This document shows, one piece after another, positions 14,752 to 34,078 of a DNA stretch of 50,881 nt. The DNA comes from Pseudomonadota bacterium (GTDB lineage Bacteria > Pseudomonadota > Gammaproteobacteria > Steroidobacterales > JBCBZW01), in the NCBI GenBank assembly GCA_039815145.1, contig JBCBZW010000028.1:1-50881 (forward strand). Reading direction: 5' to 3'. The notes under the pieces are model-generated. The model searched no databases. It was not told the origin of the DNA and saw nothing but the letters and a program-made list of their open reading frames with translations. A program made the position numbers and the translations under genes. Each line of letters begins with the position of its first letter. Within the stretch, counting starts at the first letter, position 1.

Positions 14752-14776
14752 CGAGGCGACTTGGGCGGGATTCGGC

Positions 14777-15055: not shown

Positions 15056-15256
15056 CTAGGGCGCAGCCCCCGCGCCGCCAGCCGCACGAAGCGCCTCAAC
15101 CTTCGGCTCGAGCGCACGCACCTTGGTGACGATAGTAGCCATGCGATCGAGGATGGCGCCGGCCTCGTCGGCCCCGCCCTCCAACACATCGAGGGCGTAG
15201 TTCACGTGGCCTACAGCGTCAGCCACGATTGCTTTCGGTTCGTCCCTGCCGCTCAT
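15056..15256 (-). CDS. Small helical phage protein, unknown
   Basis: This 66-residue protein starts at an ATG inside the end of the preceding small membrane protein (38-base overlap) and ends immediately before the HNH gene. It is predicted to be helical with an Ala/Glu/Leu pattern suited to a short coiled coil (VNYALDVLEGGADEAGAILDRM, then VRALEPKVEALRAAGG, split in two helices). It has no signal or membrane segment. Placed after a one-pass membrane protein it could be a lysis accessory, but the family is not recognised. Confidence 0.5.
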   Translation of the reverse strand: MSGRDEPKAIVADAVGHVNYALDVLEGGADEAGAILDRMATIVTKVRALEPKVEALRAAGGAGAAP

Positions 15257-15446
15257 TGATGGCGACCTCCATACTTGCGGTGAATTTGGTTGGTAGCGCC
15301 GCTATACGAACAGCGCATTGCTTGATGTCTGGCCAGGCGCGGATGATCTCCAAGGCGATGGACCCGTACCGCCAGAGCAGACACCCGAGGACTGAGCACA
15401 TGACGATGGTGAGCACGTCGGCCACCAGAGCAATGGCTTGGATCAT
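15219..15446 (-). CDS. Small one-pass membrane protein, holin-like candidate
   Basis: This 75-residue protein has one strong hydrophobic segment (about residues 3-28, IALVADVLTIVMCSVLGCLLWRY) followed by a more polar tail with charged C-terminus (NERQGRTESNRG). The ATG overlaps the tail-fibre stop by four bases. Small membrane proteins between fibres and packaging genes often act in lysis, but nothing in the sequence proves it and no canonical endolysin adjoins. Treat holin as a hypothesis. Confidence 0.5.
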   Translation of the reverse strand: MIQAIALVADVLTIVMCSVLGCLLWRYGSIALEIIRAWPDIKQCAVRIAALPTKFTASMEVAINERQGRTESNRG

Positions 15447-16972
15447 GGTCGACCCCGATCGTTTCCGAGCAGTCGCACATACCGCTCATGGGTGAGCGCA
15501 CTGCCTGTAGCCCTCAAGCGGACCTCATAGGCGCGGTCATCCAGCGTGCCGGTGACGTAGAGCCGCAGCCTACCCTCCGGGTCGAACTGAAGCGACTGCA
15601 GCTGAGGGGTCGCCGTGGCATCCTCACCAGTGCTCGCTACGGTCGAGGCAATGAACTGCGCGGTCGCACCCACTAGGGCATCACCCGCCTGCATCACGTC
15701 GGACAGGTCCACGTAGCGCGCCTGCACCTCACCTGGCCCCACTGGTGCCTCCCAACCGAGTTCGTTGACGTGATCGTCACCAGGCGACCAGTACACCGTG
15801 CGCTCGTCGTCCGGCGCATCGAAGGTAGCGGCCTCCCCTACCACTTCGCCCATAGCGATAGTGATGACAGGCGTTCCGATGGAACCGGCCGACCCGTTGA
15901 CCGGCGAGACAGTCAGCTCGCTCGGCTGCACGACGGTGATCGTTGGCGCACCGATTGAGCCCGCAGAGCCCGTGATGGGGCTTACCGTCAGATTCGCGGG
16001 CGACGTCACGGTGATGACCGCAGCGCCGATGGTTCCGGACGTGCCCGTGATCGGCCCGGCGACCAGGTCGGCTGGCAGGGTCGGCACGATGTTGGGCGCG
16101 ACGATGCTGCCGGCGGTTCCCGCGATCGGGCTCACCGTCAGGTTCACCTGCTGCACGGTACGCGTGATCGTTGGCTCGTCGATGGAGCCACTCAAGCCCG
16201 TGATGTCGCCGACAGTGACCGTGCGCGTCTGGGTGATGACCGGCGCGGCGATGCTGCCGGCGCTGCCGCTGATGGAGCTCACCGTCAGATCCGCCGATGG
16301 CGTCGGATACGGGTCGGTCGTGTACGTGACCGTCCCGACCTCGGTCATTACGATTTCGTCGGCTGTGCCCTCCGCGGTGCCGGTATCGTCGAGGTTGGAC
16401 TCCAGTTTGAAGTAGTGCTTCGGCGGCGGGGTGATCTCGTCGGGGCGCGTCGTCGGCAGCGCGTCGATGTTCACTGCGCTAAGGCCCGAGTCCCAGACAG
16501 CTACGTGCGCGACCTCACCCGCCGTTCCGCTGGCGCCCTGCTGGTCCCAACCGAACCGCAACGAGTCGATCGTAGACGGGTACGTGCCGGGAGCGCCTGT
16601 TGCGCTTATCGCCGATCCGTCTAGGTAAACCGTGATGCTGCTCGGCCCGAAGATGCCCACCACGAGGTGCCAGTCGTCATCAGTGATCGAATCAGCCTGG
16701 TCGAGATTGACAATGCTGTCGTTCCCGCCTTGCTTCGCGTATGCGCGTGCAAGGAAGTCCAGGCTCTGCCGATCGATACCAACCTGGACAAACCGGTTCG
16801 TAAACGCGTCGTCCAGGAAAATCGCAGCGATGTTGTCGTCGCCCGAGATGCGCTTACACCAGCCCGCGATGGTGACCGTGTTCGACGTTAGGGCATTGAT
16901 CTCATCGACGATCGAGCCCGCCGGTAGCGCCGTGTTGATCGCATAGTTGCTGCTGTCTACCTGGATTCCCAC
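15443..16972 (-). CDS. LamG-like tail fibre protein with tandem repeats
   Basis: A GTG start follows AGGAG and gives 509 residues. Residues about 33-170 form a LamG/concanavalin-like beta-sandwich (VTIAGWCKRIS..., DDWHLVVGIFGPSSITVYLDGSAISA split as strand-loop-strand, ...VAHVAVWDSGLS), a common glycan-binding module in phage adhesins. Residues 226-373 hold six tandem repeats of about 25 residues with consensus LTVSPITGSAGSIGAPxIT. A seventh related copy sits in the neighbouring large protein. The C-terminus (about 380-509) is a separate beta-rich domain with WSPGDDHVNELGWEAP. It probably binds a surface glycan or protein. Confidence 0.72.
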   Translation of the reverse strand: MGIQVDSSNYAINTALPAGSIVDEINALTSNTVTIAGWCKRISGDDNIAAIFLDDAFTNRFVQVGIDRQSLDFLARAYAKQGGNDSIVNLDQADSITDDDWHLVVGIFGPSSITVYLDGSAISATGAPGTYPSTIDSLRFGWDQQGASGTAGEVAHVAVWDSGLSAVNIDALPTTRPDEITPPPKHYFKLESNLDDTGTAEGTADEIVMTEVGTVTYTTDPYPTPSADLTVSSISGSAGSIAAPVITQTRTVTVGDITGLSGSIDEPTITRTVQQVNLTVSPIAGTAGSIVAPNIVPTLPADLVAGPITGTSGTIGAAVITVTSPANLTVSPITGSAGSIGAPTITVVQPSELTVSPVNGSAGSIGTPVITIAMGEVVGEAATFDAPDDERTVYWSPGDDHVNELGWEAPVGPGEVQARYVDLSDVMQAGDALVGATAQFIASTVASTGEDATATPQLQSLQFDPEGRLRLYVTGTLDDRAYEVRLRATGSALTHERYVRLLGNDRGRP

Positions 16973-16984
16973 AGGGCAGCTCCT

Positions 16985-19900
16985 CTATGCAGCATCAGGC
17001 AGTTGAACGGCATACGGCGCTTGAATCGCTGAGGGGAACAGGAGCAGCACGCGCTTCTCTGGGATCTCAATGAAGCCCTTCCCGTCTCCGCGAATCTGCG
17101 TCCCGCCGTCATCCCACGGCATCACGTCGCCCATCAGCGTGTGCTGTGTGGCGGCGTGGGTCGTGAGGTTGTACTCGAAGATGTCCTGTTGCGTGGTCGG
17201 GCTCGCGTCCGTCGCGTTCCACAGCCACAGTGACCCCCGCGCCTCGTCGTACCACGGGCTCGGCAGCACATCGGCAAGCACCGTGCTCGACAGGTTGGCA
17301 CCCGTCACGAGCGCCGCCTCGTCACGGCTTACGGTCGTCGTGGTCTCCGTCGCGAAATCGAAGACGAAGCTGTACCACTCGCCGCTGCCGATGCTGTGCA
17401 TCCGGCCGCCCGCGTGCACGAGCACGCCCTGTGACGCCAGGTTGTTGCTCCCCGTGGAGATACCCGACGTCATCGTGCCGTCAGGCCTGAGGATGTAGAC
17501 CTCAGGGCTATCGGACGAGCCGATCATCACCTTGCCGGTGGAACGATCGAGCCACGTCTGAGCGATGGCGCTGCCGCTAGCGAGGTTCCCAGGCGTCGGT
17601 AGCTGGCTCCACCCAGCGCCGCCCAGTGACTCGTCAGCGAACGGAAGCTCCCACGAGTCGCCCAGGAAGTTCCCACTCGCGCTGTTCGGTGCGCCACCGA
17701 AACGCAGATAGCGGTTGCGGTCCCAGTCGGCAACGATGCCGTCGTAGGGGTGCAGCGATGGCGGCGAGCCATCCGCGTAGACGTTGCTCTCGGAGATGGC
17801 ATCTCGAATGTCGGTCGGGTCCGGCGACGTCGTAGAAAGGCGGTAGCCCATCGGCCGCTCGCAGCCCCGCGCGTCGTAGACGGGCAACCCGTTCCAACCG
17901 CCATCGTTGTGGCCACCCATCTGGATGACCAACCGATAGAGGGCGCCGTGCCCCGCTGCCCAGGCTCGCTTGTGGCGCGTGAGGCTGCGTGTGTTGTCGA
18001 TGTAGTCCCGCCAGGCATCGGGGACGATGTCGTCCATCGTGACGCCGTGCGTTGCACCTTCGGTCACCTGACGGCACTGGAACGCGCCCAGCCCATCCAG
18101 GTACTGGAACGGCGGCGCCTCGTAGCCACGCGCCACGTAGGCGCACCCGGCGTTGCCCTTATCGGGCGTCGGGGTCGTGTTGGTGATGCCTGCAATCTCG
18201 GTTGCGCTGCCCTTGTTGGGGCTGGCCACCTTGATCTCGCCGGTGAAGTCAGTGCCGCCCTGGATGCCGAACCGCGACTCGGTGGGCATGAAGTCGGCCA
18301 GCACGATGCTCTCGAAGGGCTCAGCATCGCTGATGATGTCCCCGGCGTTTCGCTGCGTCGGGCCACCGGGGAACAGGGCGGTCACCGCCGGCAGGTTCGC
18401 CTGCGCATCGGCCAAGTTCGTCGCACTGTCGCTGCCGTACTGAATCGTGCCGTCCGGGTACCAGCTGTTCCCGCTGATGTGCACCTGTCCGTGCCCGGTG
18501 TTATTCAGCTGGATAAGGCGCGTGTCGTCCGGGCCGTAGGCGGACATCACGAGGTTCCCCTGCAACGCGTAGCGGTTCTGGGCACCGTTGTTGGCGTTCC
18601 ACCAGGTGGCGAGCGAAGCCGATCGGCTGTCATCCCGGTCCGATAGGATCACCGTGTTGTGGTACAGGAAGTACCCGGACGCCTCGTCGTTGAACTTGAA
18701 CGGCTGGCGACCCGGGTTCGCGAAGATGTTGCCCGCGATCAGCATGGGCCCGGCGAACAGCGGATCCAGACTCACCGCCGTCATCGTGTTGATCGCCGTC
18801 GAGTCTACAAGTGACCCGCTGACGCCATAGTCCGCTTCGAAGGCGTCGTCCGAGCAGTCCAGAATTAGCATCTGCGCGAAGTGAACGCTCCGCGATTCGG
18901 TGAGCTGTTGGGTGCCGGCGTGCTGAGCCGAGGAAAGCGCGTCGCCGTGGCCCCAGACGGTGCAACCCCAAGCGGCGTTGCCGGAACCCGGCAGGATGAT
19001 GCCACCCTCACTCCAGCTACCGCTCGAGTCGTTGTCCTCCGTCCAGTGATCTGCGTACAGATTGCAGCCCAGGAACAGGCAGTTGTAGATCATCGTCTGC
19101 GACGACTCGGCGAACCCGCGGACCCCGATGTCGAAGCCCACCACGATCAAGTCACGGAACGTCAGCCGCTCGTTGCTGCTGCCGTCGCGCAGTTCAATGC
19201 CGCTCGAGCGAAGGCTGCTGTTCGGTCCTCCACCTGTCCGCGGGCCAACGAGCGTGAAGTTCTCGAAGACGACGTTCGCGGTGCGCGACCCGTTCACCGT
19301 CGACAATCCCCGACAGCCCGCCAAGTTGAGGCGAATCGAGTCGGTGCGGTTCGCGCCGCGCACGTAGATGAAGCTGGCGTCCAGGCCCTCGATCGGCGCC
19401 TCTACCCCGAACAGATCCGAACCCGCGTCGTAGTCGCCGCTGAACTCGATCACGTCGCCAGGGCTTGCGGCCGCAATGGCAGCGCGCAGCGTGGCGATGT
19501 TGCCGTCGCTGACGGTCGTGGTGGCTGCACCTGCGACACCAGGAAGGGCGCGGGTTGTGAACGTGCTCTGGGCTGTAGTCAGGCTACCGCCGTCGTCCAC
19601 CGTGACTTCGACGTCATAGCTCGTGCCAGGTGTCAGTCGGATCGCAGCGAAGGAGAAATCCCCGTCGCGCAGGACGCTCACATCGTTGACGCCGGGCTGT
19701 GCGCCGTCAGCCGCACTGATCCGGTAAAGCGGGTGGCCAGTCGTCCACGAGGGGGCGCCAGTCTCGCGGTAGCGCATCGTCGCTGTAGCAGCGGCGCCGT
19801 ACGCACTGCCAGGGACAATCACCTGGATCTGCTGCGGAGTCGCGGGACCGTCACGCTCGACCGTCAGTGCACCAGGAGCACCGGATGTGATGACAGGTGC

Positions 19901-20332
19901 ACCGAGACGACCCTGCGTCCCCGACACCGCGCCGACCGACAGCTGCCCCACTCGCGGCCCAATGAACGGATCATCCCTCAGCGTCAGGCCTGCGGGAATC
20001 GTCAGGTCATCGCCGACGCTGAAGGCCGCGACGCTGGCGGTCGTGGAGAACAGCACCGCATCAGCGATATCGTTGACCCCGATCAGTGACAGGTCGCCGC
20101 TCGAGTATGCGGTCGCTCCGGTGGCGTCCAGCCGCCCCGCCGTTACCTGACGCGTATCGTCGCCGCCGTCTGCGAGCGCACCGAAGGACCCTGTGAACGT
20201 CGCGAGCGTGGCCAAGTCGATCGCGGCATAGTCCTCGCTGTCCTCGAGTGACCGAGGGACCAGGCGGAAGGACGTCGCAGCGGCGGCGGCGGATAGCCGC
20301 GCGTCGAGGACTGCGGCGCCGACGCGAGCCAC
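16985..20332 (-). CDS. Large tail spike-like protein: beta-helix and propeller-like domains
   Basis: A GTG start three bases after the previous stop gives 1115 residues. Order: residues 1-118, a domain homologous to the whole preceding 134-residue protein; 128-150, one LSVGAVSGTQGRLGAPVIT repeat shared with the next fibre; about 160-275, a fibronectin-III-like segment (GTSYDVEVTVDDGGSLTTAQSTF region); about 285-640, a right-handed beta-helix opening with NIATLRAAIAAASPGDVIEFSG and rich in N-x-F/I coils; about 770-1115, a kelch- or propeller-like region with repeated D...W..Y.. blades (for example PEVYILRPDGTMTSG). Beta-helix spikes usually cleave or bind polysaccharide, so this is the best candidate for host capsule recognition. 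No catalytic residues can be named. Confidence 0.75.
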   Translation of the reverse strand: MARVGAAVLDARLSAAAAATSFRLVPRSLEDSEDYAAIDLATLATFTGSFGALADGGDDTRQVTAGRLDATGATAYSSGDLSLIGVNDIADAVLFSTTASVAAFSVGDDLTIPAGLTLRDDPFIGPRVGQLSVGAVSGTQGRLGAPVITSGAPGALTVERDGPATPQQIQVIVPGSAYGAAATATMRYRETGAPSWTTGHPLYRISAADGAQPGVNDVSVLRDGDFSFAAIRLTPGTSYDVEVTVDDGGSLTTAQSTFTTRALPGVAGAATTTVSDGNIATLRAAIAAASPGDVIEFSGDYDAGSDLFGVEAPIEGLDASFIYVRGANRTDSIRLNLAGCRGLSTVNGSRTANVVFENFTLVGPRTGGGPNSSLRSSGIELRDGSSNERLTFRDLIVVGFDIGVRGFAESSQTMIYNCLFLGCNLYADHWTEDNDSSGSWSEGGIILPGSGNAAWGCTVWGHGDALSSAQHAGTQQLTESRSVHFAQMLILDCSDDAFEADYGVSGSLVDSTAINTMTAVSLDPLFAGPMLIAGNIFANPGRQPFKFNDEASGYFLYHNTVILSDRDDSRSASLATWWNANNGAQNRYALQGNLVMSAYGPDDTRLIQLNNTGHGQVHISGNSWYPDGTIQYGSDSATNLADAQANLPAVTALFPGGPTQRNAGDIISDAEPFESIVLADFMPTESRFGIQGGTDFTGEIKVASPNKGSATEIAGITNTTPTPDKGNAGCAYVARGYEAPPFQYLDGLGAFQCRQVTEGATHGVTMDDIVPDAWRDYIDNTRSLTRHKRAWAAGHGALYRLVIQMGGHNDGGWNGLPVYDARGCERPMGYRLSTTSPDPTDIRDAISESNVYADGSPPSLHPYDGIVADWDRNRYLRFGGAPNSASGNFLGDSWELPFADESLGGAGWSQLPTPGNLASGSAIAQTWLDRSTGKVMIGSSDSPEVYILRPDGTMTSGISTGSNNLASQGVLVHAGGRMHSIGSGEWYSFVFDFATETTTTVSRDEAALVTGANLSSTVLADVLPSPWYDEARGSLWLWNATDASPTTQQDIFEYNLTTHAATQHTLMGDVMPWDDGGTQIRGDGKGFIEIPEKRVLLLFPSAIQAPYAVQLPDAA

Positions 20333-20335
20333 TGC

Positions 20336-20740
20336 CTAGCCTACGGTGACGTCGGCGGTCTGCTCGATGTCGAAGGCGGCCGAGATGTTGAGCTCGTCGC
20401 CGTTACTGAACGCGGCCGCGGTCACGTTGGTGGTGAACAGCACCTGGCCGTTGACGGTGTCGACGCCGGCCAGGGTGATGAGATCCGTGCCGTTGTAGTC
20501 GGCAGTCGCGGCGCCACCAGTGAGCGGCCCGCAGACCGTCTTTCGGCTGTCGGCGGCATCACCAGCGCCTGGCGCCGTAAAGTTCGCAGACGAGGTCGAG
20601 AAGTTGCCGAGCGTAGCGGCCACCAGGCTCGCGTACGTTTGCTCGTTTTCCTGCGCCCGGGGCACCACGTGGATCACATCGCAATTGTCGCGAATGTGTG
20701 CCAGCTTGGCGTCCGTGGCGGCGTCACCGAATCGGGACAT
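20336..20740 (-). CDS. Tail fibre adaptor-like protein, paralogue of spike N-terminus
   Basis: The ATG at 20740 follows GGAGA at eight bases; an upstream extension would read through two terminator hairpins and is not coding. The 134-residue product aligns with residues 1-118 of the next protein: both begin M-x-R-x-G-x-A, continue through ...VPR...Y..., and share the strand pattern L.L.GV......VLF.T...AAFS.GD.L.I. It may be a head domain that attaches fibres to the tail or a trimmed duplicate after fibre swapping. Confidence 0.65.
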   Translation of the reverse strand: MSRFGDAATDAKLAHIRDNCDVIHVVPRAQENEQTYASLVAATLGNFSTSSANFTAPGAGDAADSRKTVCGPLTGGAATADYNGTDLITLAGVDTVNGQVLFTTNVTAAAFSNGDELNISAAFDIEQTADVTVG

Positions 20741-20758
20741 TGCGAATTCTCCAGGCAC

Positions 20759-20782
20759 AAAAAAGCCCGCACGCGGCGGGCT
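20759..20782 (-). terminator. Intrinsic terminator before the fibre genes
   Basis: On the minus strand a 7-bp stem (AGCCCGC/GCGGGCT, loop of five) is followed by six T. It lies 18 bases upstream of the start of the 134-residue fibre protein, so it stands in front of the operon and not behind a gene. Confidence 0.72.
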
Positions 20783-20795
20783 GGAGGGAGATACG

Positions 20796-20828
20796 AAAAC
20801 GCCCCGGGTCATGACTGACTCCAGGGCG
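20796..20828 (-). terminator. Second, upstream intrinsic terminator
   Basis: An 8-bp stem with one G-U pair (CGCCCTGG with CCGGGGCG) and a 13-base loop is followed by TTTT on the minus strand. It precedes the first hairpin by about 13 bases and follows the candidate promoter at 20849-20877. Confidence 0.5.
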
Positions 20829-20848
20829 CACTCGCTCAACGTAGCGCT

Positions 20849-20877
20849 AGTCTAGGATTCTGGTGGCATCGGCGCAA
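20849..20877 (-). promoter_or_regulatory. Candidate late promoter upstream of tandem terminators
   Basis: On the minus strand TTGCGC (20877-20872) and TAGACT (20854-20849) are separated by exactly 17 bases. The match is moderate (4/6 in each box versus TTGACA/TATAAT). A start near 20842 would give an RNA that meets a terminator hairpin within about 15 bases, an arrangement like lambda PR' with its terminator, where a Q protein allows read-through. Confidence 0.35.
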
Positions 20878-20900
20878 GCATTGGGATTCATGGCTAGCGA

Positions 20901-21962
20901 TTAGTCCTGTACTCCGCCTTCCGCGTCTTCACCGTGCTCCTCGCCTCCTTGCTCCTCGCGCTTACTCCTTTCGCGGCTGTTCTTCCATGCGATGAACTCC
21001 TCATACTCGGTCTCGGCTGTATTCTCCGGCGACCGCTCTCTTTCCGGCTCAGGGTCGTCCGACGCGACCGCAGTGTCAGGTCGGTGACCGGGTGGAGGAC
21101 CAGTAAGGAGCTTAGGCTCGGGGCTCATGAGTCGACGCGGATCAACCGTCGCTCGGTCATTAATCTCCGGGATCGTGACTCCAGCCTCAAAGAACTGTTC
21201 TACGGCGCTCGCAACCTGGCGTCGAAGTATCTCAGCCATCTCTGGTTCAATGGAGCCAGCCTCCCTTTGTTCCGCGATTCTTTCGTAGAGAGGCAGAGTA
21301 CCTGATAAAATCTCCAGCTGCTTTTCAGCCTTCCTCTCCCTGTGGAACACGATTCTGTCCCACAGTTCAATGAAGACCTCTTTGACCAGCTGGATAATCT
21401 TCGCGGCCCCGAGCAGGTCAAAGGACTTGTCACTACCGGAATCGCACGCAACAACGCTGAGTGCATGGTCCGTTTCGCCTTCCAGCTGGGCGATAGCTGA
21501 ATAGAGGCTTTCTACGGATTGAAGCGCGTAGATCAACCTAGTCGGCGTAGAGCTACCCGTATCCTCAATCACGTACAGAGTCAGAAGCCCCTCCGAACTC
21601 CCTCTTACTTGCTCCACATTGCTCCGATCGAGAAGCGAGACAATCGGAGGGGCGAATCGCCTTAAATGATAGACGCTTGTGTAAACCGATCTGGCTGCAT
21701 CGGCGTCTCCCTTACCTGACTCCGCACGCATCAACGTGCCCCAAAACTCAGGTGAGTCGAGCTTCTCGAGATCAAAGACGGCTAAGACTTGTCTAGCTAC
21801 GCTGTCGAAGTTCGCACTGCGCACGCTCCATCGCGAATTGGCGGAAACAAACCTCGCCACGTTCTGGCGATCTGGCCGGCCACGAAGGACCATCTCTATC
21901 TGGGCCTCATTAAGCGCGTCGACGACTTCTCGGATACCGTCGATCAGTTGTTCTCTTAGCAT
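20901..21962 (-). CDS. Unassigned soluble protein in accessory block
   Basis: I use the ATG at 21962, preceded by AAGGGA with six-base spacing; a GTG just upstream is possible. The 353-residue product has an N-terminal helical part, a middle strand region (LLTLYVIEDTGSSTPTRLIYALQ) and the helix block LLGAAKIIQLVKEVFIELWDRIVFHR (about residues 185-210), followed by amphipathic helices and a disordered, acidic, Pro-rich and Glu/Arg-rich C-terminus. It has no membrane segment and no known catalytic motif. Base composition looks lower in GC than in the fibre genes. It faces the divergent secreted-protein gene. A cargo gene is likely; function unknown. Confidence 0.6.
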   Translation of the reverse strand: MLREQLIDGIREVVDALNEAQIEMVLRGRPDRQNVARFVSANSRWSVRSANFDSVARQVLAVFDLEKLDSPEFWGTLMRAESGKGDADAARSVYTSVYHLRRFAPPIVSLLDRSNVEQVRGSSEGLLTLYVIEDTGSSTPTRLIYALQSVESLYSAIAQLEGETDHALSVVACDSGSDKSFDLLGAAKIIQLVKEVFIELWDRIVFHRERKAEKQLEILSGTLPLYERIAEQREAGSIEPEMAEILRRQVASAVEQFFEAGVTIPEINDRATVDPRRLMSPEPKLLTGPPPGHRPDTAVASDDPEPERERSPENTAETEYEEFIAWKNSRERSKREEQGGEEHGEDAEGGVQD

Positions 21963-22363
21963 CACATCCCTTTGCTCTCGCCAATTGTCACTTTCCGGAA
22001 CGCACCAACGACACCTTACGACCCATCGGCAAATCCCACTTATCAGTTGGCGCTTACTTGTAGCACTTCATTCTTCGTTCCCTTCTTCGTGCTCAATACG
22101 CCGAGAGACACCTCAGCTGGCGGAAACTACAAGTCGAAGCAGGTTTCCAGCCCAGTTCACGTCAGCCCACCGGTAGCTGATGAAGACGCCTGGTTCTTGT
22201 TGGCTACGGATCCCTCTCTCTAGGGTCCTAGGATTAGTGCGATATCACGCCCAGATTTCGCACTACACAAGAGACCGGACCAACGGCCACCCCTCAGCAC
22301 CGCGCCCGTAACACTCGCCAGTTAGCGTCTCCCTGTGGCCATCAACCTTACCAGGAGATCCCG
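21963..22363. other. 401-base intergenic region with an inverted repeat
   Basis: No convincing gene is seen here. It separates two divergent accessory genes and so must hold promoters for both. It contains a perfect 8-bp inverted repeat, TAGTGCGA (22235-22242) and TCGCACTA (22258-22265), with a 15-base spacer, a possible operator. AGGAG precedes the ATG at 22364 with seven bases between. Confidence 0.35.
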
Positions 22364-22918
22364 ATGCTACGAACCACCATCGCCATTGCTGCACTGCTCG
22401 CCCTGCCGGCGAGCGCCCAGTCGCCCCTGGACGCCCTCCAGTCGCAGACGGCCAACGCTGGCCTATACGCCAACCGCATACCGGACAGGACCTTCTCCCG
22501 CGCCTTCACGGAGGTGTGCATCACCGGAGGCGGTGTTCTCTTCGACCAGAACGAAGCTGGCGAATCGACCCAGGGCGGGGCTTGCCGTCCTCTGATGAAG
22601 GGTTGGGTGATCGAGCGCGACCAGCGTGAGGCCGCCACTTGGACGGAGGCTCGCGTCGCCTGCACGATCGACGACATGCGTCTACCCGAGGCCATGGAGT
22701 GGCAATACAGCTGCTTCAACGCCGATACGTTCGGGCTCCTGAACATGATCGGCGAATGGGAGTGGGCTGGGAATACAACGATTGGCTACGAACCTAATCC
22801 CACACGCGGGATAGGCGCCAACATGTTCGGGAGCGGAGCTTGCGAGGATGGCACACGCGGTTTCGTCGGACGCGAGGATGAGTTCGCGCGAGTAGAGCAG
22901 TTCCGGTGCGTGCGCTAG
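22364..22918 (+). CDS. Secreted protein, C-type lectin/FGE-fold-like
   Basis: This 184-residue protein has a clean signal peptide (residues 1-19, cleavage after ASA). The mature part has several Cys. Residues about 88-135 read TWTEARVACTIDDMRLPEAMEWQYSC..., then GLLNMIGEWEWAGNT; this follows the arrangement eAr.aC....mRLPea.EWqysC.....nM.GewEW of formylglycine-generating-enzyme-like and C-type-lectin folds. The catalytic Cys of true sulfatase modifiers is not identifiable. It is on the plus strand against the late genes, typical of a moron expressed in the lysogen. AGGAG lies seven bases before the start. Confidence 0.68.
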   Translation: MLRTTIAIAALLALPASAQSPLDALQSQTANAGLYANRIPDRTFSRAFTEVCITGGGVLFDQNEAGESTQGGACRPLMKGWVIERDQREAATWTEARVACTIDDMRLPEAMEWQYSCFNADTFGLLNMIGEWEWAGNTTIGYEPNPTRGIGANMFGSGACEDGTRGFVGREDEFARVEQFRCVR

Positions 22919-23044
22919 CTAGCTTCGACTGCCGCGGGTCTGCCCGCTGGGCAGCCCCGCTGGAGAGAATTGTAAATCCCGACAACGACACGAGGCACGG
23001 GGATCAGGGACATGAAAGGTCGTCCTCCCACTCCCCAGGGAAAC

Positions 23045-23893
23045 CTACGGCGAGATGACGTGCACTATCAGCGTGCCGCCGCCCCACTCATGAGCCTCCA
23101 ACCCAAGCCCGCCACCGATGCTGGGGTTCTCCATGTTAAAGCCCTGCCTCTGCAGTCGCTCCGTAAGCTTGACGGCTGCTGTTAGGTCTACACTATTGTA
23201 GTAATACACGCGTGATGCGCGAGTGTGCGTGGCTGGCACTGCGAGCCACTGATCACCTCGAAGGCTATACCCCCACGCTCGCACGTCGATTATCAGCTGA
23301 TCATGGCGTGCTCGCGACATACCGACCGTCACAATTCCCACCTGATACTTGCTGTTTTCGTTGAGTTCCAGTGCCCGTTCTATTTGATCACTCGACTCGC
23401 CAAGCGCCTGCATGACGCCTCTCGCTGCCTCCTCAAGCTCTCTCTCGCCTGATCTAGCGGCGAATGCGCCTATCTCTTCTGCAAAAGGCTTCAAGGCGTC
23501 CCCCAGATCCGAAGCGTATGAGAGCGCTTGCACTGTATTGTCCGCCTGATACCTTAGGTTTTCCCACGCATTCTGTGATCGTTCCAAATCGGCCCGCGCG
23601 CGGTCCGCCTGTCCTTGCATGGCGAAGAGCTCTTGCTCTGCGCGTTCAAGCCTCTCAAGCGTTTGCTCGGACACGAGAGTAGCAGCCTCGATGTGCAAGA
23701 GCGCATCCCTAACTGAGTCCTTGATGAGGTAGCCACCAAGGGTGCCGGCAAGCGTGAAAACGGCGCCAGCGAACACTCCTACTATCGCTGCGTGGACTGA
23801 AAAACGCCGATAAAGCGCCTTTTCCACCAGCTCGAAGAGCCGCCTCCGCTCAAGCTCGTCCTCCGGAGTCTCGTTTTCCAATGGAATCTCCAT
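23045..23893 (-). CDS. Membrane-anchored coiled-coil protein, unassigned
   Basis: I take the ATG at 23893 (282 residues); a GTG six bases upstream is possible. One transmembrane segment is seen at about residues 32-58 (SVHAAIVGVFAGAVFTLAGTLGGYLI region). Residues about 65-125 form a heptad-rich coiled coil (EQTLERLERAEQELFAMQGQADRA). The C-terminal domain (about 185-282) has strands KYQVGIVTVGM and ASRVYYYNSVDLTAAVKLTERL and may be outside the membrane. It follows the polytopic membrane protein by 44 bases on the same strand and may act with it. No family is recognised. Confidence 0.6.
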   Translation of the reverse strand: MEIPLENETPEDELERRRLFELVEKALYRRFSVHAAIVGVFAGAVFTLAGTLGGYLIKDSVRDALLHIEAATLVSEQTLERLERAEQELFAMQGQADRARADLERSQNAWENLRYQADNTVQALSYASDLGDALKPFAEEIGAFAARSGERELEEAARGVMQALGESSDQIERALELNENSKYQVGIVTVGMSRARHDQLIIDVRAWGYSLRGDQWLAVPATHTRASRVYYYNSVDLTAAVKLTERLQRQGFNMENPSIGGGLGLEAHEWGGGTLIVHVISP

Positions 23894-23937
23894 ACCCACA
23901 AACTGCTTTTAGCGCTCTCGCACGCGGCCCGGTAACC

Positions 23938-25632
23938 TCATCCTCCCACAGAGCCCCCCAACCACCCAGCCGTACACACCCCCTCAGTCGCCCCAATGGC
24001 ATCCGAGAAGCACTCAGCGATGCTGAGGTAGAAGTTCCCGACGGTGGACAGCCCGCCATTCTGGCCGAACGAAAACAGTCCAATCATCAGCACGTAGACC
24101 AGCATGAACGGGAACCACCAGCGGATCGTCTGGAGTGTCGCGATCCAGAAGCGCCAGCTGTCCTGCATCGGTGTCCCCGGCTGGAGCCGCTCCACCGCCC
24201 AGTCGTTCCACTTTGCAGGAATCAGCGTGATCCCCGCTGCGTACGCCATCACCGAGAGGTGAAGTAGCGTCGGCACGAAGGTCGAGAAGTGCATCGCGGA
24301 GACCCACCACTGAGACTGGCTGCGCAAGCCTGCGAACTTGGACTCGAGGTCGATGACTGGGGCGCCGGTTGGCCCGATGGTTGTGGCTATGTTGAGGAGC
24401 TGAGACAGGCCGACGATAGAGATCGCTAGCAATCCGAGCGTGACAGCCGCTACAAGCGAGTCCAGCGCGGAATAGCCGATCACTCGCAACCAAGCAGATC
24501 TACCCCCTTGAGAAGAGGATGCTATGGATCTCGTCAGTAAGAGCCGCGTTACACCGAACGACGCGAAATCGAAGACTGCATTGCAGAACGGTAGCACTAC
24601 TAGGAAAGGCCATAGGTTGGCGGCACTCTCGACATCAACCTCGAGGGCGGCCGCTGCCACAAGTGTCGGCACAAGAAAGACGCAACCGAGGATCGCCGGA
24701 AGAAGCCGCCGCCACTTCGTCTCAACTACGTGACCAGCGCCAGCGAAAGCGCCAACAGCGACAACAACAGTGACAACGCCAACGACAACGCCATTGACAA
24801 CGCTATTGACAGCGCCAAGCACAGCCAAACCGACAGCCAAACCGACAGCTAAAGTGGCAGCGACGGCGCCCGTGCCAGGCACAAAACGGACAACAGGGCC
24901 AAAGACAGCGTTAGCGAAAATTCCTGCGACAAAGACAGCGAGGGCGCCAGCAAGAACGCCAGCGAAGGCGACAACGCCAGCGCCAGCGACACGGCCAGCG
25001 AAAGCGAGAGCGAAAGCGAGAGCACCAGCTAGTAGCAGACCCTTAGCCAGCCTTCTCGGTGTGACTGGCCACTCGGCTAGGAGCGCATCCGAAACCACTA
25101 GGACTAAGGTGATTGGCCACATGACGAACAGACCCACTAGCGTGACCATTTTCCCCCAACCACCGAGGTTATCCGAGTAAACCTGAATGCTACCCAACGC
25201 GCCACTCCCACCGACGGCCCAGTCGGTCGTCATGAGGATAATTGGATAAGCGATAGAGATGGCTACGAAGAACGCCAAGGCGCTGTTATTGAAGCAGCTA
25301 TCCCAGAGTTCAGCCTTGGGGTCTGTGTAGGAGCGCTCGTACGTCGGCGGAAGCACCCGCGCACTCCAGTCCAAGAAGACACCAACCAAGACGCGATACT
25401 TCTCGCCGAACGCCCGCTTCTCTAGACTGGATTTCAGCCGAAGAACAGAGTTGGACTTCCGCGGATCAGGCCTCTCGGCAACCCACTTCAGCTTGTGAGC
25501 TTTTTCGACCCTGTCCTCGCCCAGGACCATCCAGTGAAGCACCCAGAGTACTGGGAACGCGCTGAGCGGGATCGCCCAAAGCCGTTCGACACCGTAAAGA
25601 AGCTTCAGGAATTCTGAGACGAATGGTGGCAA
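23938..25632 (-). CDS. Polytopic membrane protein with low-complexity core
   Basis: The only plausible start before the first membrane segment is TTG at 25632 (564 residues). Ten or more hydrophobic segments are visible, beginning with LWAIPLSAFPVLWVLHWMVLG. A central stretch (about residues 195-300) is a nearly continuous Ala/Val/Gly/Phe run; its DNA repeats gcaaaagcgcc-like 6- and 12-base units, a sign of replication slippage. The C-terminal half has separate helices and Trp-rich loops (WFPFMLVYVLMIGLFSFG). Such proteins are not phage structural components. With the next gene it may form a two-gene membrane system. Function unknown. Confidence 0.6.
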   Translation of the reverse strand: MPPFVSEFLKLLYGVERLWAIPLSAFPVLWVLHWMVLGEDRVEKAHKLKWVAERPDPRKSNSVLRLKSSLEKRAFGEKYRVLVGVFLDWSARVLPPTYERSYTDPKAELWDSCFNNSALAFFVAISIAYPIILMTTDWAVGGSGALGSIQVYSDNLGGWGKMVTLVGLFVMWPITLVLVVSDALLAEWPVTPRRLAKGLLLAGALAFALAFAGRVAGAGVVAFAGVLAGALAVFVAGIFANAVFGPVVRFVPGTGAVAATLAVGLAVGLAVLGAVNSVVNGVVVGVVTVVVAVGAFAGAGHVVETKWRRLLPAILGCVFLVPTLVAAAALEVDVESAANLWPFLVVLPFCNAVFDFASFGVTRLLLTRSIASSSQGGRSAWLRVIGYSALDSLVAAVTLGLLAISIVGLSQLLNIATTIGPTGAPVIDLESKFAGLRSQSQWWVSAMHFSTFVPTLLHLSVMAYAAGITLIPAKWNDWAVERLQPGTPMQDSWRFWIATLQTIRWWFPFMLVYVLMIGLFSFGQNGGLSTVGNFYLSIAECFSDAIGATEGVCTAGWLGGSVGG

Positions 25633-27193: not shown

Positions 27194-28138
27194 TCAGCAC
27201 CTCCCCAGGGCCTGGCCGCCCGCCTGGGCGACGGTGTCGCTCGCCGGGCTGGGTCGTCGGCGCTTGGGGCATGGCCCGCACCGATGGGCGTCGTTGGTGA
27301 TCTCGTCGCAGCGAGCACAGGGTTGGTGGCCCTTCGGCTTGGCGGGTCCACCGGCGTCGGTCATCACGACCCGGCGGACGTAGCTCTCGAGGGCGTGGGG
27401 GTGGTCTGGGGGTGTGCCGTGGTGGGCGACGAACGCGTCCATGCCGCGGGAGATCTGATCGCTGGTCGGCGGCGTGCCCTGGGCCCAGGCTCGCCAGACC
27501 TGCATCGCCCTCGGCGCCTGGAGCTTGGTCGGGCTGAACGGGAGCGTCGGGGCGTGGACCAGGTAAGCGTCGTTCACCGACTGGACGATCTCGGCGACCC
27601 GAGTCGCAATGCCCCCACCATCGTCGCGCGCTGCTGTGTTGGCGGGTTCTATGGCGGGTTCCTGGCGGGTTACCTGGTCAGGGTGACCACATTGAGAGGT
27701 CAGGGTGACCACATGAGAATGGTCACTGTGACCATGTGGGGACTCGCTACTGTGGTCAGCGTGACCATCTGGGAGCGCCCTACTCTGGTCACCATGACCA
27801 ACTGGCAACGGAACCTGACTGTGGTCACCGTGACCACGTGAGAGCACCTTGGTGACGTTCACTGTGTAGCGGTTCGTGCGCCCGAAGTGACCACGGTCCT
27901 TGGTGACCCACTCATGCTGCGCTAGCCACCGAACGCCTCGCTGTACTGTGCTCTTGCCTACTCCAAGGTCGTCAGCAATCGCCCCAAGGCCAGGCCATGC
28001 GAGGCGCTCATGATTGGATCGAAGCGCCAAGTAGATCGCCACCTGACGTGCATTGTTGGGCGCATCAACGACGGCTAGGCAAGACAGTAGCCGTAGCGCG
28101 AGCTCTCCAGATCCTAGGGATGCCCGCTGCTCCGCCAT
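27194..28138 (-). CDS. Replication initiator protein with internal iterons
   Basis: I use the ATG at 28138, preceded by AGGTGG at eight bases; a start at 28243 overlapping cro is possible. The 314-residue product has a winged-helix DNA-binding N-terminus (AWPGLGAIADDLGVGKSTVQRGVRWL, about residues 40-65). In the middle, G-H-x-D-(H/Q)-S appears repeatedly, because six palindromic iterons lie in the coding sequence (27675-27836). The C-terminal part has conserved W and a Cys-rich stretch (CARCDEITNDAHRCGPC) that may bind zinc. It is the lambda O-like initiator: origin inside the initiator gene. Confidence 0.83.
   Translation of the reverse strand: MAEQRASLGSGELALRLLSCLAVVDAPNNARQVAIYLALRSNHERLAWPGLGAIADDLGVGKSTVQRGVRWLAQHEWVTKDRGHFGRTNRYTVNVTKVLSRGHGDHSQVPLPVGHGDQSRALPDGHADHSSESPHGHSDHSHVVTLTSQCGHPDQVTRQEPAIEPANTAARDDGGGIATRVAEIVQSVNDAYLVHAPTLPFSPTKLQAPRAMQVWRAWAQGTPPTSDQISRGMDAFVAHHGTPPDHPHALESYVRRVVMTDAGGPAKPKGHQPCARCDEITNDAHRCGPCPKRRRPSPASDTVAQAGGQALGRC
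27675..27836. repeat. Six palindromic iterons, candidate replication origin
   Basis: Six copies of TGGTCA-N3-TGACCA (the second begins with A) start at 27675, 27697, 27720, 27753, 27786 and 27822. Start-to-start distances are 22, 23, 33, 33 and 36 bases, close to whole helical turns except the last. Each is a perfect 6-3-6 palindrome, apart from the first base of the second. They lie in the initiator gene, the layout of lambda ori. Confidence 0.82.
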
Positions 28139-28227
28139 TAGGCAATCCACCTGCTGGGATGCCGACAGCAGACGGGCTCGCGTCGGAAGCCTAAGCAAGT
28201 CACTGTGGGCACGCGGTCCACGGCGCT

Positions 28228-28238
28228 CACTACTGTGC
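28228..28238. promoter_or_regulatory. Possible extra operator half-copy
   Basis: CACTACTGTGC here is identical to 11 bases of the operator copy at 28497-28508. It lies at the end of the Cro-like gene, before the initiator start. Chance occurrence cannot be excluded. Confidence 0.25.
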
Positions 28239-28481
28239 TGCATCGGGCGGACCGACAGTGGGTGAGGCGATTGTCTCAACGGACTCGCTAGAAAGAAGGC
28301 CGTCAGCGACGAGCACGGCAGAGAGTCGAGCAAGCAAGTCGGCCGAAGTCCGCTTCTTCCTCGCGCCGTTGGCGATCTTGCTGACGGCTGAGACGGAACA
28401 GCCCGCTCGTCGAGCTACCTCCTCATAGCCACCGCGGCGCTTGATGGCCGCCGCCACATCGGCAACAGGATACGAGTACAT
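28230..28481 (-). CDS. Cro-like helix-turn-helix regulator
   Basis: This 83-residue protein begins MYSYPVADVAAAIKRRGGYEEVARRAGCSVSAVSKIANG; the segment YEEVARRAGCSVSAVSKIANGARK is a helix-turn-helix (about residues 19-42). It is transcribed leftward and divergently from the repressor, sharing the operator pair at 28483-28508. It heads the early leftward operon with the initiator, so it is the Cro/CII-type regulator of lysis-lysogeny. The start codon lies two bases from the first operator, so the leader must be very short. Confidence 0.8.
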   Translation of the reverse strand: MYSYPVADVAAAIKRRGGYEEVARRAGCSVSAVSKIANGARKKRTSADLLARLSAVLVADGLLSSESVETIASPTVGPPDAAQ

Positions 28482-28482
28482 G

Positions 28483-28494
28483 ACACAATTGTGC
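28483..28494. promoter_or_regulatory. Operator O1 (ACACAATTGTGC)
   Basis: Eleven of twelve bases match the palindrome GCACAATTGTGC found at 29241 and 29265. It lies in the 52-base divergent gap between the Cro-like gene and the repressor. Confidence 0.65.
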
Positions 28495-28496
28495 GT

Positions 28497-28508
28497 GCAC
28501 TACTGTGC
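28497..28508. promoter_or_regulatory. Operator O2 (GCACTACTGTGC)
   Basis: A ten-of-twelve match to the GCACAATTGTGC palindrome, with outer arms intact. Its centre is 14 bases from that of O1, so a repressor could bind both cooperatively and block both divergent promoters. Confidence 0.55.
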
Positions 28509-29240: not shown

Positions 29241-29252
29241 GCACAATTGTGC
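29241..29252. promoter_or_regulatory. Operator O3 (GCACAATTGTGC)
   Basis: A perfect 12-base palindrome and one of a pair. Together with O4 it forms a larger dyad TGGCACAATTGTGC ... GCACAATTGTGCCA with an A/T-rich core (ttgctatattac) where a -10 box may lie. Confidence 0.7.
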
Positions 29253-29264
29253 TTGCTATATTAC

Positions 29265-29276
29265 GCACAATTGTGC
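29265..29276. promoter_or_regulatory. Operator O4 (GCACAATTGTGC)
   Basis: An identical second copy, 24 bases from O3 centre to centre, about two helical turns and a fraction. It lies 52 bases before the start of the next plus-strand gene and probably controls the rightward (recombination/integration) operon. Confidence 0.7.
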
Positions 29277-31536: not shown

Positions 31537-31947
31537 ATGACTGATGCCGCCGACTTCGAAAGCCGCATTCGGGATCGCTTCCCCGGGCGCGAGTACCTGA
31601 ACGCCCGACAGTCGGCTCAGGCACTCGGCATTAGCGAGCCTGTCTTTCACGGCCAGGTGCGGGACAAGCTGAGCGTGAACACCGCGACGAAGAGACGTCG
31701 CTATGCTGTGTGGGAGCTCGCCCGCTATTTGGAGTCGACGACATGCCAAGGAAGCACGACGAACTGTACTGGCTCACCCGGAACCGGCACGGCGTCTACT
31801 GCGCGACCTGGTACGACGAAGACACCCGCCAGACCCGCCAGCGCAGCCTCGGCACTACCGACCTTCGGGCAGCTCAGGCCGAGCTTATCCAGTTCCAGGC
31901 AACGCACTACCGGCCACGGGACGCAGAACCCGAAGACGTCGAGCTAA
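31537..31947 (+). CDS. Excisionase-like helix-turn-helix protein
   Basis: I start at the ATG at 31537, with GAGGG nine bases upstream; an ATG at 31519 is possible. Residues about 18-65 (EYLNARQSAQALGISEPVFHGQVRDKLSVN...RRRYAVWELARYLES) form a MerR/HTH_17-type winged helix as in excisionases. The frame then runs 205 bases into the integrase gene, where the sequence becomes Ser/Thr/Pro-rich (GTGTASTARPGTTKTPARP), which looks like out-of-frame reading. The true C-terminus may be shorter; a frameshift or sequence error cannot be excluded. It probably directs excision. Confidence 0.6.
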   Translation: MTDAADFESRIRDRFPGREYLNARQSAQALGISEPVFHGQVRDKLSVNTATKRRRYAVWELARYLESTTCQGSTTNCTGSPGTGTASTARPGTTKTPARPASAASALPTFGQLRPSLSSSRQRTTGHGTQNPKTSS

Positions 31948-32951
31948 CGCAGATATGGCTGTGGTACTGGGACGAGCACGGTAGCAAGCGGCCAACCGGC
32001 GCTGATTCCCTACACGCTCACCTGACTCGGCTCGGAGAATGGTGGGCCGGCCGAGCCGTGGCTGACCTCACCCACGATCGCCAGAAGCAATTCCGCGACG
32101 CAATGATCGGCGGGTGGGGCCGCTGGAAGCCATGCGCCCCGGGCTACGCCCAGCGAATCCTGCACACCATGCGAGCGGCGCTGAATCACGCCTACAAGGC
32201 CGGGCGCCTACGAACAGTGCCGCACATCAAGGTGCCGGACCCCGCGAAGCCCTCGGACTGGGGCCTCAGCCAGGAGCTGGAGAACGCGGAGCGCCTGGAC
32301 TACGTTGCGACGCCGCAAGAGATTCGGCGATTCCTCGAGGCGGTGCGGGGCGACCCTCAACGGGCTCACATCGAAACGGTGCTCTGGCTGCTGCTGTCGT
32401 GCGTGCGGCCGGAAGCGCTGCTGCAGCTGCGTTGGGAGCAGATCGACTTGCGAGCCCGAGTCATGGACACGCGCGGCAACCGCGAGGAGACGAAGAAGCG
32501 ACGGGCAAAGCTGCCGATCCCGACTGCAGCGCGCGACCACTTGATGACGCTGTCACGAGCACCCACCCCGACCGAGGTGTTGGAGCGCTTCAAGATCGAC
32601 GAAGCTCGGGCGACATGCGTAGTCCGACGGGCGACGCAGCACGCCGGCCGGGATGTGCTCCTGCCGATCACCACCGTCAAGCGTGGATGGGCCGCAGCGC
32701 GGAGCCTAGCTGAGCTGCCCCGCGAGTTCACGCCGCGGATGTTCCGGCACTTCGCCGGCACCAGGATGGCGGCGGCCGGCGTGCCCCTACTGCAGGTTGA
32801 CTACATGCTCGGGCACGCAATCCCGTCCACAACAAAGCGCTACGTGCACCTCTCTCCCGACCACCTGCGAGAGGCGCGCGACGCGCTCGATGAGTGGCAC
32901 TCAGTTATCGTAGGCGAAGCGTCTGGTGGAGCTTCGCGCGAGGAGAAATGA
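31743..32951 (+). CDS. int: Tyrosine integrase
   Basis: The ATG at 31743 follows TTGGAG and gives 402 residues. An N-terminal arm-type domain begins RKHDELYWLTRNRHGVYCATWYDED (a strand pair), then a core-binding domain (about residues 75-160) and the catalytic domain. Catalytic residues are R222 (VRPEALLQLRW), K256, R335 in PRMFRHFAG (the first His of the HxxR box is replaced by R332), H358 in LGHAIP and nucleophile Y367 in KRYVHL. It lies next to the tRNA-Val attachment site and would integrate the phage there. Confidence 0.93.
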   Translation: MPRKHDELYWLTRNRHGVYCATWYDEDTRQTRQRSLGTTDLRAAQAELIQFQATHYRPRDAEPEDVELTQIWLWYWDEHGSKRPTGADSLHAHLTRLGEWWAGRAVADLTHDRQKQFRDAMIGGWGRWKPCAPGYAQRILHTMRAALNHAYKAGRLRTVPHIKVPDPAKPSDWGLSQELENAERLDYVATPQEIRRFLEAVRGDPQRAHIETVLWLLLSCVRPEALLQLRWEQIDLRARVMDTRGNREETKKRRAKLPIPTAARDHLMTLSRAPTPTEVLERFKIDEARATCVVRRATQHAGRDVLLPITTVKRGWAAARSLAELPREFTPRMFRHFAGTRMAAAGVPLLQVDYMLGHAIPSTTKRYVHLSPDHLREARDALDEWHSVIVGEASGGASREEK

Positions 32952-34078
32952 TGGAGTTTGGGCAGAAGATCGAGGTCGCACGCAATATCGTGCTCATCGC
33001 TGTTGCACTAGTGGGACTTCCGCTGGCAGTGATACGGACTCGCCTGGCAATGCGTCAACAGGACCTAGATCGGTTCGAGAAGGGAGTCTCGATGTTGGGC
33101 GATCAGCGTATGTCCGTGCGGGAGGGCGGGATACGAGTGCTGGAGAGCCTTGCGCGCGGTAACCCGTCGAAGTACGCGAGTTCAGTTTGCCTAACTCTTT
33201 GGTCGTTTTGCCTCGACCGTAGCCATGAGGCCTTTGCTGAAGTCGATGAGCAAGAACCCGATTACGAGGTAGATGACGCCACGGGGCTTGAGCCACCTGC
33301 GGCACCTCAAGATCTCCAGCTCGCGGCGTCCGCAGCCGGGCGTCTTAACCACCTAGATGACGCGCGACTTGTCGCCAAGTTGGAACGCGCTTACCTAAAT
33401 GCAACCGATCTGAGTCAAGCCCATCTCACGAGCGCTAACCTGACATTCGCAAGTTTGAGGCGCACCAACCTGACGCTCGCTAGCCTGAAACACATCGACC
33501 TGGCGTGCGCCGACCTCACGCGCGCCGACCTGACGAACGCCAACCTGACCGGAGCCCGCCTGACAGAGACCAAACTGACGCGCGCCAAACTCTGGTTCAC
33601 CAAACTGAAGGGCGTCCATCTGACGGAGGCCGACCTGGCGCGCGCCGAGCTCACGAGCGCCGACCTGACAGGTGCCTACGCGACGGACGCCATCCTGACC
33701 GGCGCCAGACTTAGGGACACAACCCTGACGGGTGCCGAACTGACCGACGCCCGCCTGAAGGATGCTATTTTGAGTCGCGCCGACCTGACGCGCGCCGACC
33801 TGACGCGCGCCGACCTCACGCGCGCCGACCTGACGAACGCCAACCTCACGGACGCCAACCTCACGGGGGCCGACCTGACGGACGCCAACCTCACGGGGGC
33901 CGACCTGACGCGCGCCGACCTGACGCGCGCCGACCTGACGGGGGCCGACCTCACGAGCGCCAAATTGACGGACACCAAATTGACAGTCGCCAAATTCACG
34001 GGCGCCAAGCTGGAAGACATCACTCTGTCAAGGGAGCAAATGGACGCCCTTTGGGAGAGTCAGGATGCTCTGCCGTGA
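32951..34078 (+). CDS. Membrane-anchored protein with 42 pentapeptide repeats (cargo)
   Basis: The ATG at 32951 follows AGGAG with suitable spacing; an ATG three bases upstream is also possible. The 375-residue product has a membrane segment (about residues 10-30, IVLIAVALVGLPLAVI), a charged helical block (RFEKGVSMLGDQRMSVREGGIRVLESLA) like that of the protein at 13834-14751, an acidic linker, and then 42 consecutive pentapeptides (about residues 147-356), mostly A-(D/N)-L-T-x, about ten coils of a right-handed quadrilateral helix. Many units are encoded by nearly identical 15-base repeats. It sits between integrase and attachment site, a classic cargo slot. Role unknown; pentapeptide helices often mimic DNA or bind gyrase, but here membrane anchoring suggests another use. 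Confidence 0.72.
   Translation: MEFGQKIEVARNIVLIAVALVGLPLAVIRTRLAMRQQDLDRFEKGVSMLGDQRMSVREGGIRVLESLARGNPSKYASSVCLTLWSFCLDRSHEAFAEVDEQEPDYEVDDATGLEPPAAPQDLQLAASAAGRLNHLDDARLVAKLERAYLNATDLSQAHLTSANLTFASLRRTNLTLASLKHIDLACADLTRADLTNANLTGARLTETKLTRAKLWFTKLKGVHLTEADLARAELTSADLTGAYATDAILTGARLRDTTLTGAELTDARLKDAILSRADLTRADLTRADLTRADLTNANLTDANLTGADLTDANLTGADLTRADLTRADLTGADLTSAKLTDTKLTVAKFTGAKLEDITLSREQMDALWESQDALP

Follow-up and report, generated by a model that had tools for sequence, protein, structure and literature searches.

What purpose is served by a run of closely spaced palindromes lying within a protein-coding gene? This question is raised by a contig from a Pseudomonadota bacterium (NCBI GenBank assembly GCA_039815145.1, contig JBCBZW010000028.1), whose whole analyzed stretch of 50,881 nucleotides is referred to here as the window, and in which six copies of a TGGTCA-N3-TGACCA palindrome occur inside a gene for a replication initiator resembling the O protein of phage lambda. 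We propose, with a probability of roughly 0.87, that these repeats are predicted initiator-binding iterons of a prophage replication origin situated within the gene for its own initiator, where they would open or mark a set of adjacent repeats while the C-terminal domain of the initiator recruits helicase. The original prediction, made from the DNA letters, had likewise taken the repeats for iterons read by an initiator dimer, and this continues to be the best reading, one that we infer from O-like family matches, a modeled winged helix followed by a linker, the recovery of homologues by the DNA motif alone, and covariation between the recognition helix and the palindrome arms.

A motif search reproduced the predicted array, including its spacings of 22, 23, 33, 33 and 36 base pairs (bp) and its span of 27675-27836. 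Five of the copies match the palindrome exactly and the copy at 27697 is one base off, such that the description of six perfect palindromes holds for all but one of them. When up to three mismatches are permitted, the motif is found 36 times in the window, versus a mean of 16.5 among 100 shuffled versions (maximum 25). The 6,017,271-base host assembly contains five exact copies of the motif, all of them within the array, and the count for a reversed-pattern control is zero. A chance origin of the repeats is ruled out by these motif counts in the window and the assembly. A lone copy with one mismatch, TGGTCACGCTGACCG, resides far from the array at 2672-2686, in the tail gene region.

The repeats were correctly placed in the coding region, and the recurring peptide that had been assigned to all six is generated by five. 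These in-frame copies encode GHGDH, GHGDQ, GHADH, GHSDH and GHPDQ, and the mismatched copy, read in another frame, gives VVTLTS. The occurrence of similar peptides from five copies in one frame is what would be expected if the protein itself required a repeated GHxDHS sequence and the DNA palindrome were a by-product, but this explanation sits poorly with the sixth copy and with the behavior of the wider family. Depending on the frame, the palindrome yields a GHxDH/Q-type peptide, VxxT, or an in-frame TGA, and GGTCA-type sites in the family are distributed among these frames as 84, 53 and 3 (n = 140), with only the last 3 in the frame that contains TGA. Moreover, all 7 glycine codons in the array are GGT, compared with 3 of 23 elsewhere in the initiator gene and 87 of 420 among the glycine codons of seven late genes, and the encoded segment is modeled at low confidence, as for a disordered linker. 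Frame usage and the GGT codon bias therefore indicate that the repeated peptide most simply follows from the DNA motif, and we regard a need for the peptide as very improbable.

Comparisons with protein families place the gene product among O-like and replication-initiation proteins. The initiator matches phrog_391 (E 4e-10) as well as phrog_11896, phrog_270 and others, with further matches to phrog_678 (4e-4) and, weakly, to phrog_345 (0.019); lambda O also matches phrog_391, phrog_678 and phrog_345, although within phrog_391 it aligns over a different part than the window initiator does. Among Pfam families, the initiator matches HTH_36, a helix-turn-helix (HTH) family of the winged-helix type (E 6e-6). 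PF04492 (Phage_rep_O), which lambda O matches at 6e-36, gave no match to the initiator up to E 0.05. In an AlphaFold2 model with an overall predicted local distance difference test score (pLDDT) of 61.6, the winged helix and a set of C-terminal helices flank a linker that is probably disordered, as judged from the model. The array encodes amino acids (aa) 166-220, between these two parts, and the linker DNA carries five of the six iterons together with the direct repeats described below. The C-terminal domain is presumed to bind partner proteins, and the cysteine cluster that follows it is a possible zinc ribbon. An alternative start codon, ATG at 28243 (aa 31), is plausible, and the following ATG is at 28138.

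Structural comparisons returned mainly generic similarities. A Foldseek search of the PDB with the initiator model produced generic folds only, mostly winged helices, with none at E <=0.001, and a search of viral structure models placed a GpO N-terminal domain at rank 6 and a replication protein O at rank 42, both with low template-modeling scores (TM-scores). Sequence searches of the PDB with the window initiator and with lambda O found no matches. The profile of A1, a family set to which the window initiator belongs, retrieved 15 weak PDB chains of transcription-factor type or unrelated (best E 0.0012), and hhalign of this profile against lambda O as a single sequence gave no significant alignment.

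The DNA motif is by itself sufficient to retrieve relatives of the initiator. A two-site DNA pattern, devoid of protein information, was searched for in viral contigs and matched at least 120 stretches, and the open reading frames (ORFs) bearing the arrays were grouped by single-linkage blastp at E 1e-4. The array lies in an ORF of the component that contains the window initiator in 77 of the 120 loci listed and in 10 of 36 stretches recovered by a three-site scan of named genomes, with the remaining 43 viral and 26 genome loci falling outside this component. A scrambled-palindrome control returned 50 loci; 5 of these lie in the component, and their arrays have the scrambled arm. The window initiator has three direct blastp links (L051, L060 and L026; E 1e-6 to 1.5e-5). 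Among the genome loci of the component are those in Serratia, Enterobacter, Providencia, Vibrio, Komagataeibacter, Nocardiopsis, [Zimmermannella] and Macrococcoides, and thus the origin plan crosses phyla. The window initiator is a distant member of A1 (12-23% identity to the others), 53 of whose 55 array-bearing members match phrog_270, and a profile of the DNA-binding domain, in which the window initiator is itself included, matches it at E 4e-14.

For a de novo survey, 140 representatives carrying the DNA-binding domain were chosen at 80% identity, and an array was called where a repeated arm-N3-arm palindrome scored above all 20 null sequences per gene. By this measure 99 of the 140 representatives contain a palindromic array in their own gene, a number that may include a few false positives given the size of the null; the window array scores 69 versus a null of 21. 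The arms are GGTCA (51), GTTCA (8), GTGCA (6), GCTCA (4), GGCCA (3) and rarer kinds, with GGTCA over-represented because part of the set was picked by the GGTCA motif. Among the 77 representatives found by protein or profile, 49 have an array, and GGTCA and GTTCA account for 8 each. The three family scans each contributed the best 80 of at least 600 matches, and even the loci termed protein-driven were retrieved with queries derived from motif scans; in two of the protein-driven scans, the patterns include ones over the helix that permit a restricted choice of residue at one of its key positions (-4, defined below), beside patterns elsewhere in the protein. When 58 of the best 80 scan loci were examined, at least two exact GGTCA sites were present in 7 of the 58, and one ORF had been given the wrong frame. 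In an earlier pass 87 of 115 representatives were significant, and a comparison of spacers 0-8 within these identified spacer 3 alone as best in 41 cases, spacer 1 alone in 12 and spacer 5 alone in 10, the rest being ties or other outcomes; these classes overlap, as they are registers of one palindrome. Lambda O scores below the null at spacer 3 (18 versus 21) and best at spacers 5 and 7 (27 each), and thus some lambda-type origins would escape the scan.

The strongest support for the initiator reading these sites, presumably as a dimer, comes from covariation of its recognition helix with the arm, which we consider good indirect evidence drawn from sequence comparison. The set comprised the 84 of 99 array representatives with arms ending in CA, the other 15 being left out, and helix columns were numbered from the conserved Arg132. 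Column -4 (Ser128 here) is associated with the arm triplet at z 12.7, with the next column at 4.6 (n = 84), and column -1 (Gln131 here) with the outermost arm base at z 14.3. Column -4 also ranks first when identity-matched pairs are compared (289 with the same arm and 969 with different arms; 0.43 versus a median of 0), with column -1 third at 0.27, and again when only protein-driven loci are considered (n = 35; z 8.0, next 5.0). Some association is likewise observed for columns -5, -24, +19 and +20.

The pairing of residues and bases resembles a simple code. Ser or Lys at -4 mostly accompanies GGT, Asp accompanies GTG (5 of 6), Asn accompanies CC (4 of 4), and Ala or Val together with Arg accompanies GCT (4 of 4), whereas at -1 Lys is found with an outer purine (32 of 35) and Arg or Gln with an outer pyrimidine (38 of 41; for Gln, T in 6 and C in 3). 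Several -4/-1 pairs are uniform in their arm, namely Ser-Lys with GGT (23 of 23), Asp-Lys with GTG (5 of 5), Ala/Val-Arg with GCT (4 of 4), Met-Arg with GTT (3 of 3) and Asn-Arg with CC (3 of 3), and the sole Asp-Ser pair has CCG. Others are mixed, including Ser-Arg (GTT 5, GGT 3), Arg-Arg (GGT 5, GGC 2) and the Ser-Gln class of six to which the window initiator belongs (GGT 5, AGT 1). Residues 128, 131 and 132 are located at the start of the modeled recognition helix (127-139), and HTH proteins usually contact bases at the start of this helix. We lean, with some reserve, toward the generalization that O-like initiators across several phyla carry xNNNCA-N3-TGNNNx palindromes in their own genes together with adjacent direct repeats of 11-12 bp, the site being set by a small recognition-helix code. 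If this is true, the protein of a newly sequenced phage could be used to predict its origin, and vice versa.

This covariation also bears on whether the sites might be operators, bound by the initiator itself or by a phage repressor for the control of transcription rather than for the start of replication. Palindromes with a 3-bp spacer suit repressors too, an HTH gene lies directly upstream of the initiator (28230-28481, minus strand), and autoregulation might coexist with origin function. However, the arms in the family covary with the helix of the initiator itself, the iterons are located ~400-660 bp inside the gene, and a different palindrome beside the regulator gene, GCACAATTGTGC, makes a likelier operator; we consider a purely regulatory role unlikely. 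The GCACAATTGTGC palindrome occurs exactly at 29241-29252 and 29265-29276, with one mismatch at 28483-28494 and with two mismatches at 28497-28508. At up to two mismatches 1.6 copies are expected in the window, and four matches are likewise attained in 9 of 100 shuffles. These copies, before the HTH regulator gene and further upstream, are candidate CI/Cro-type operators distinct from the iterons.

The sites had also been described as helically phased, a property that is evident across the family and only loosely present in the window. Among 210 family spacings of up to 80 bp, clusters appear at 22-23, 33 and 42-46 bp, with a best-fitting period of 11.1 bp (R 0.74, versus <=0.33 in the jitter control), although part of this set derives from scans permitting only 18-48 bp between neighboring sites. 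At 10.5 bp per turn, the phases of the window sites drift cumulatively through 0, 0.10, 0.29, 0.43, 0.57 and 0.0 turn, and helical phasing here is therefore approximate.

Directly after the array in the sense of the gene, three direct repeats, which the original prediction had overlooked, constitute a second element and a candidate opening region. A search of the entire window with an 11-mer for this repeat gave 29 matches versus 22 expected, without overall enrichment, and its significance therefore rests on clustering. An equivalent element is common in relatives: in the 75 bp after the array, an 8-mer repeated at 9-17 bp is present in at least two copies in 72 of 83 relatives and in at least three copies in 40 (one of the 84 has no flank). 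For at least two copies, the corresponding control counts are 20 upstream, 22 elsewhere in the gene and 12 in shuffled sequence; for at least three copies they are 0, 1 and 0. The upstream control represents the DNA-binding domain rather than a linker, and related genes share the element by descent. A common unit is CAGAGANTACTA at 12 bp, and 48 of 84 genes have CAGAGA in the 90 bp that follow the array. The least stable 50-mer of the initiator gene starts at 27688, inside the array, and 1.6% of window positions are less stable.

These components suggest a pathway for initiation in which a dimer of winged-helix domains would read each palindrome, with one recognition helix per arm. Several dimers would assemble on the roughly phased sites and distort the DNA, and the assembly would then open or mark the adjoining region with its three direct repeats, after which the C-terminal domain would bring in the helicase machinery.

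Several observations weigh against this proposal and against the proposed code. The direct-repeat stretch (27640-27674) has a G+C content of 0.66 and a stability equal to the window mean, and thus the A+T-rich region that usually adjoins iterons and serves for opening is not found beside this array. No helicase or helicase-loader (P/DnaC-like) gene was recognized among the window proteins scanned, which do not comprise every ORF and include several neighbors without a family match. With respect to the code, relatedness among the genes inflates covariation, column -24, which is outside the helix, ranks second in the matched-pair test (0.34), and leave-one-out prediction of the arm from relatives less than 60% identical succeeds only moderately (48 of 62, versus a majority class of 51 of 84). 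In the family, 41 of 140 representatives lack a significant spacer-3 array, and among six named relatives that were checked four have no array above the null (IPLA88, mv4, pYD38-B and YeP1), including Staphylococcus phage IPLA88, whose helix is SERTIKR. Finally, a search of 97 related genomes found the initiator in the genome of origin and no homologue in any of the other 96, one of which is of the same genus. Protein searches of viral contigs found no close relatives of the initiator, and no conserved stretch came out of an alignment search that used the window-like subfamily A2. Escherichia virus mEp460_4F5, which has the expected helix SESTLKR, contains three xGGTCA-N3 sites with 1-2 mismatches (score 21 versus a null of 18), and the same scan for direct repeats detected no such element in it.

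The array might alternatively be a partition, incompatibility or copy-control locus, or the target of another phage protein, and winged-helix plasmid centromere proteins (TubR) are indeed among the weak fold and profile matches. Family sites are nevertheless found inside replication-initiator genes and follow the helix of that protein, and no partition genes were recognized among the window proteins scanned, leaving this explanation with very little likelihood compared with a replication origin.

The predicted origin is a member of the known lambda-type kind (PMC7466680, PMC3985674, PMC3349717). In lambda the origin occupies the middle of the O gene, inverted-repeat iterons are bound by O dimers, and the adjacent region opens, as described in PMC5043065, PMC7466680 and PMC3985674. 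Palindromic iterons had been singled out as unusual, but they are ordinary for this class: according to PMC5043065, plasmid iterons are mostly direct repeats that bind monomers, whereas the lambda iterons are near-perfect inverted repeats that bind O dimers. The lambda O gene contains four annotated iterons with spacings of 20, 24 and 23, and the window resembles lambda and the O proteins of Shiga toxin (Stx) phages in having several inverted-repeat iterons inside the initiator gene (lambda spacing 20-24 bp). A further likeness is found in the A+T-rich region of lambda, where three copies of ACAAAAGA, one of them with a mismatch, are spaced at 15 and 12 bp. The window also suggests that what is called the 'AT-rich region' in these origins may in fact be a second element made of repeats, with no need to be A+T-rich. 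The window differs from lambda in its TGGTCA-N3 arms rather than TCCCTC-type arms, in its six sites with five perfect palindromes over a longer span with gaps of 33-36 bp, in the G+C-rich region beside the iterons, and in the missing Phage_rep_O match.

Further parallels are provided by the O-like/DnaD-like initiators of temperate phages (PHROGs 270, 391, 428 and 678), of which 'Primosomal protein I' of mEp460_4F5 is an example. These share a homologous winged helix and, in many cases, in-gene palindromic xGGTCA-N3 sites, but their C-terminal domains vary (DnaB_2 or Phg_2220_C in some), whereas the window initiator ends in a CxxC cluster. Iteron plasmids of the RK2, P1, F and pSC101 type are similar in having repeated initiator sites that adjoin an opening region and differ in that no plasmid Rep domain is reported for the window initiator. 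Literature searches, mainly of freely available papers and without coverage of early comparisons of lambdoid origins, listed no paper that describes iterons with GGTCA arms, the covariation of helix and arm, or the second element with its repeats, and we make no claim of a first report. The window offers a clear case of a probable lambda-type origin, in a G+C-rich prophage far from lambdoid phages. Natural variation among phages offers a test of how a replication initiator picks its sites, and such comparisons could allow phage origins and their compatibility to be predicted from sequence.

Table 1. Coordinates of the predicted initiator gene, the parts of its product, and the repeats it contains
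Feature	Position	Strand	Details
Lambda-O-like replication initiator gene	27194..28333	-	379-aa ORF from TTG; PHROG and Pfam matches
Winged-helix DNA-binding domain (predicted)	27830..28111	-	aa 75-168; AlphaFold2 block pLDDT 88-98 (aa 81-160), edges 79 and 78
Recognition helix (modeled)	27917..27955	-	aa 127-139; Ser128, Gln131, conserved Arg132
Low-confidence linker	27614..27820	-	aa 172-240; block pLDDT 41-53 over aa 171-240
Helical C-terminal domain (modeled)	27356..27610	-	aa 242-326; model helices, block pLDDT 46-78
CxxC-x9-CxxC cluster at C-terminus	27269..27319	-	aa 339-355
Putative iteron TGGTCAGGGTGACCA	27675..27689	.	exact TGGTCA-N3-TGACCA
Putative iteron AGGTCAGGGTGACCA	27697..27711	.	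one mismatch (AGGTCA); other reading frame
Putative iteron TGGTCACTGTGACCA	27720..27734	.	exact motif
Putative iteron TGGTCAGCGTGACCA	27753..27767	.	exact motif
Putative iteron TGGTCACCATGACCA	27786..27800	.	exact motif
Putative iteron TGGTCACCGTGACCA	27822..27836	.	exact motif
Direct repeat AGAACCCGCCA	27640-27650	-	11-12 bp
Direct repeat GGAACCCGCCA	27652-27662	-	11-12 bp
Direct repeat GTAACCCGCCA	27663-27673	-	11-12 bp

Related arrangements of palindromes were encountered elsewhere. The initiator of Parageobacillus phage NIIg3.2 (L502:824-1618) carries palindromes of AACGGA-N3-TCCGTT type, four of them at exactly 15 bp, a tighter arrangement than the 22-bp type. Arrays of GGTCA palindromes at 14-18 bp are present in Microbispora, Nonomuraea and Massilia genomes (L131, L161, L157 and L158), outside the initiator component.

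The window is most likely a prophage, because it contains genes for a large terminase, portal, capsid, tape measure, a Sak4-like annealing protein and an integrase. Between the terminase and the early region (13834-25632), six long minus-strand ORFs are without a confident PHROG match (13834-15189, 15443-16972, 16985-20332, 20901-21965, 23045-23899 and 23938-25632). One of these is 1115 aa in length, and for that at 13834-15189 the only PHROG match, a marginal one at E 1e-3, is to a family without an assigned function. The integrase ORF (31710-32951) is overlapped at its end, in another frame, by a plus-strand pentapeptide-repeat ORF (32894-34078) that may be cargo or a host gene.
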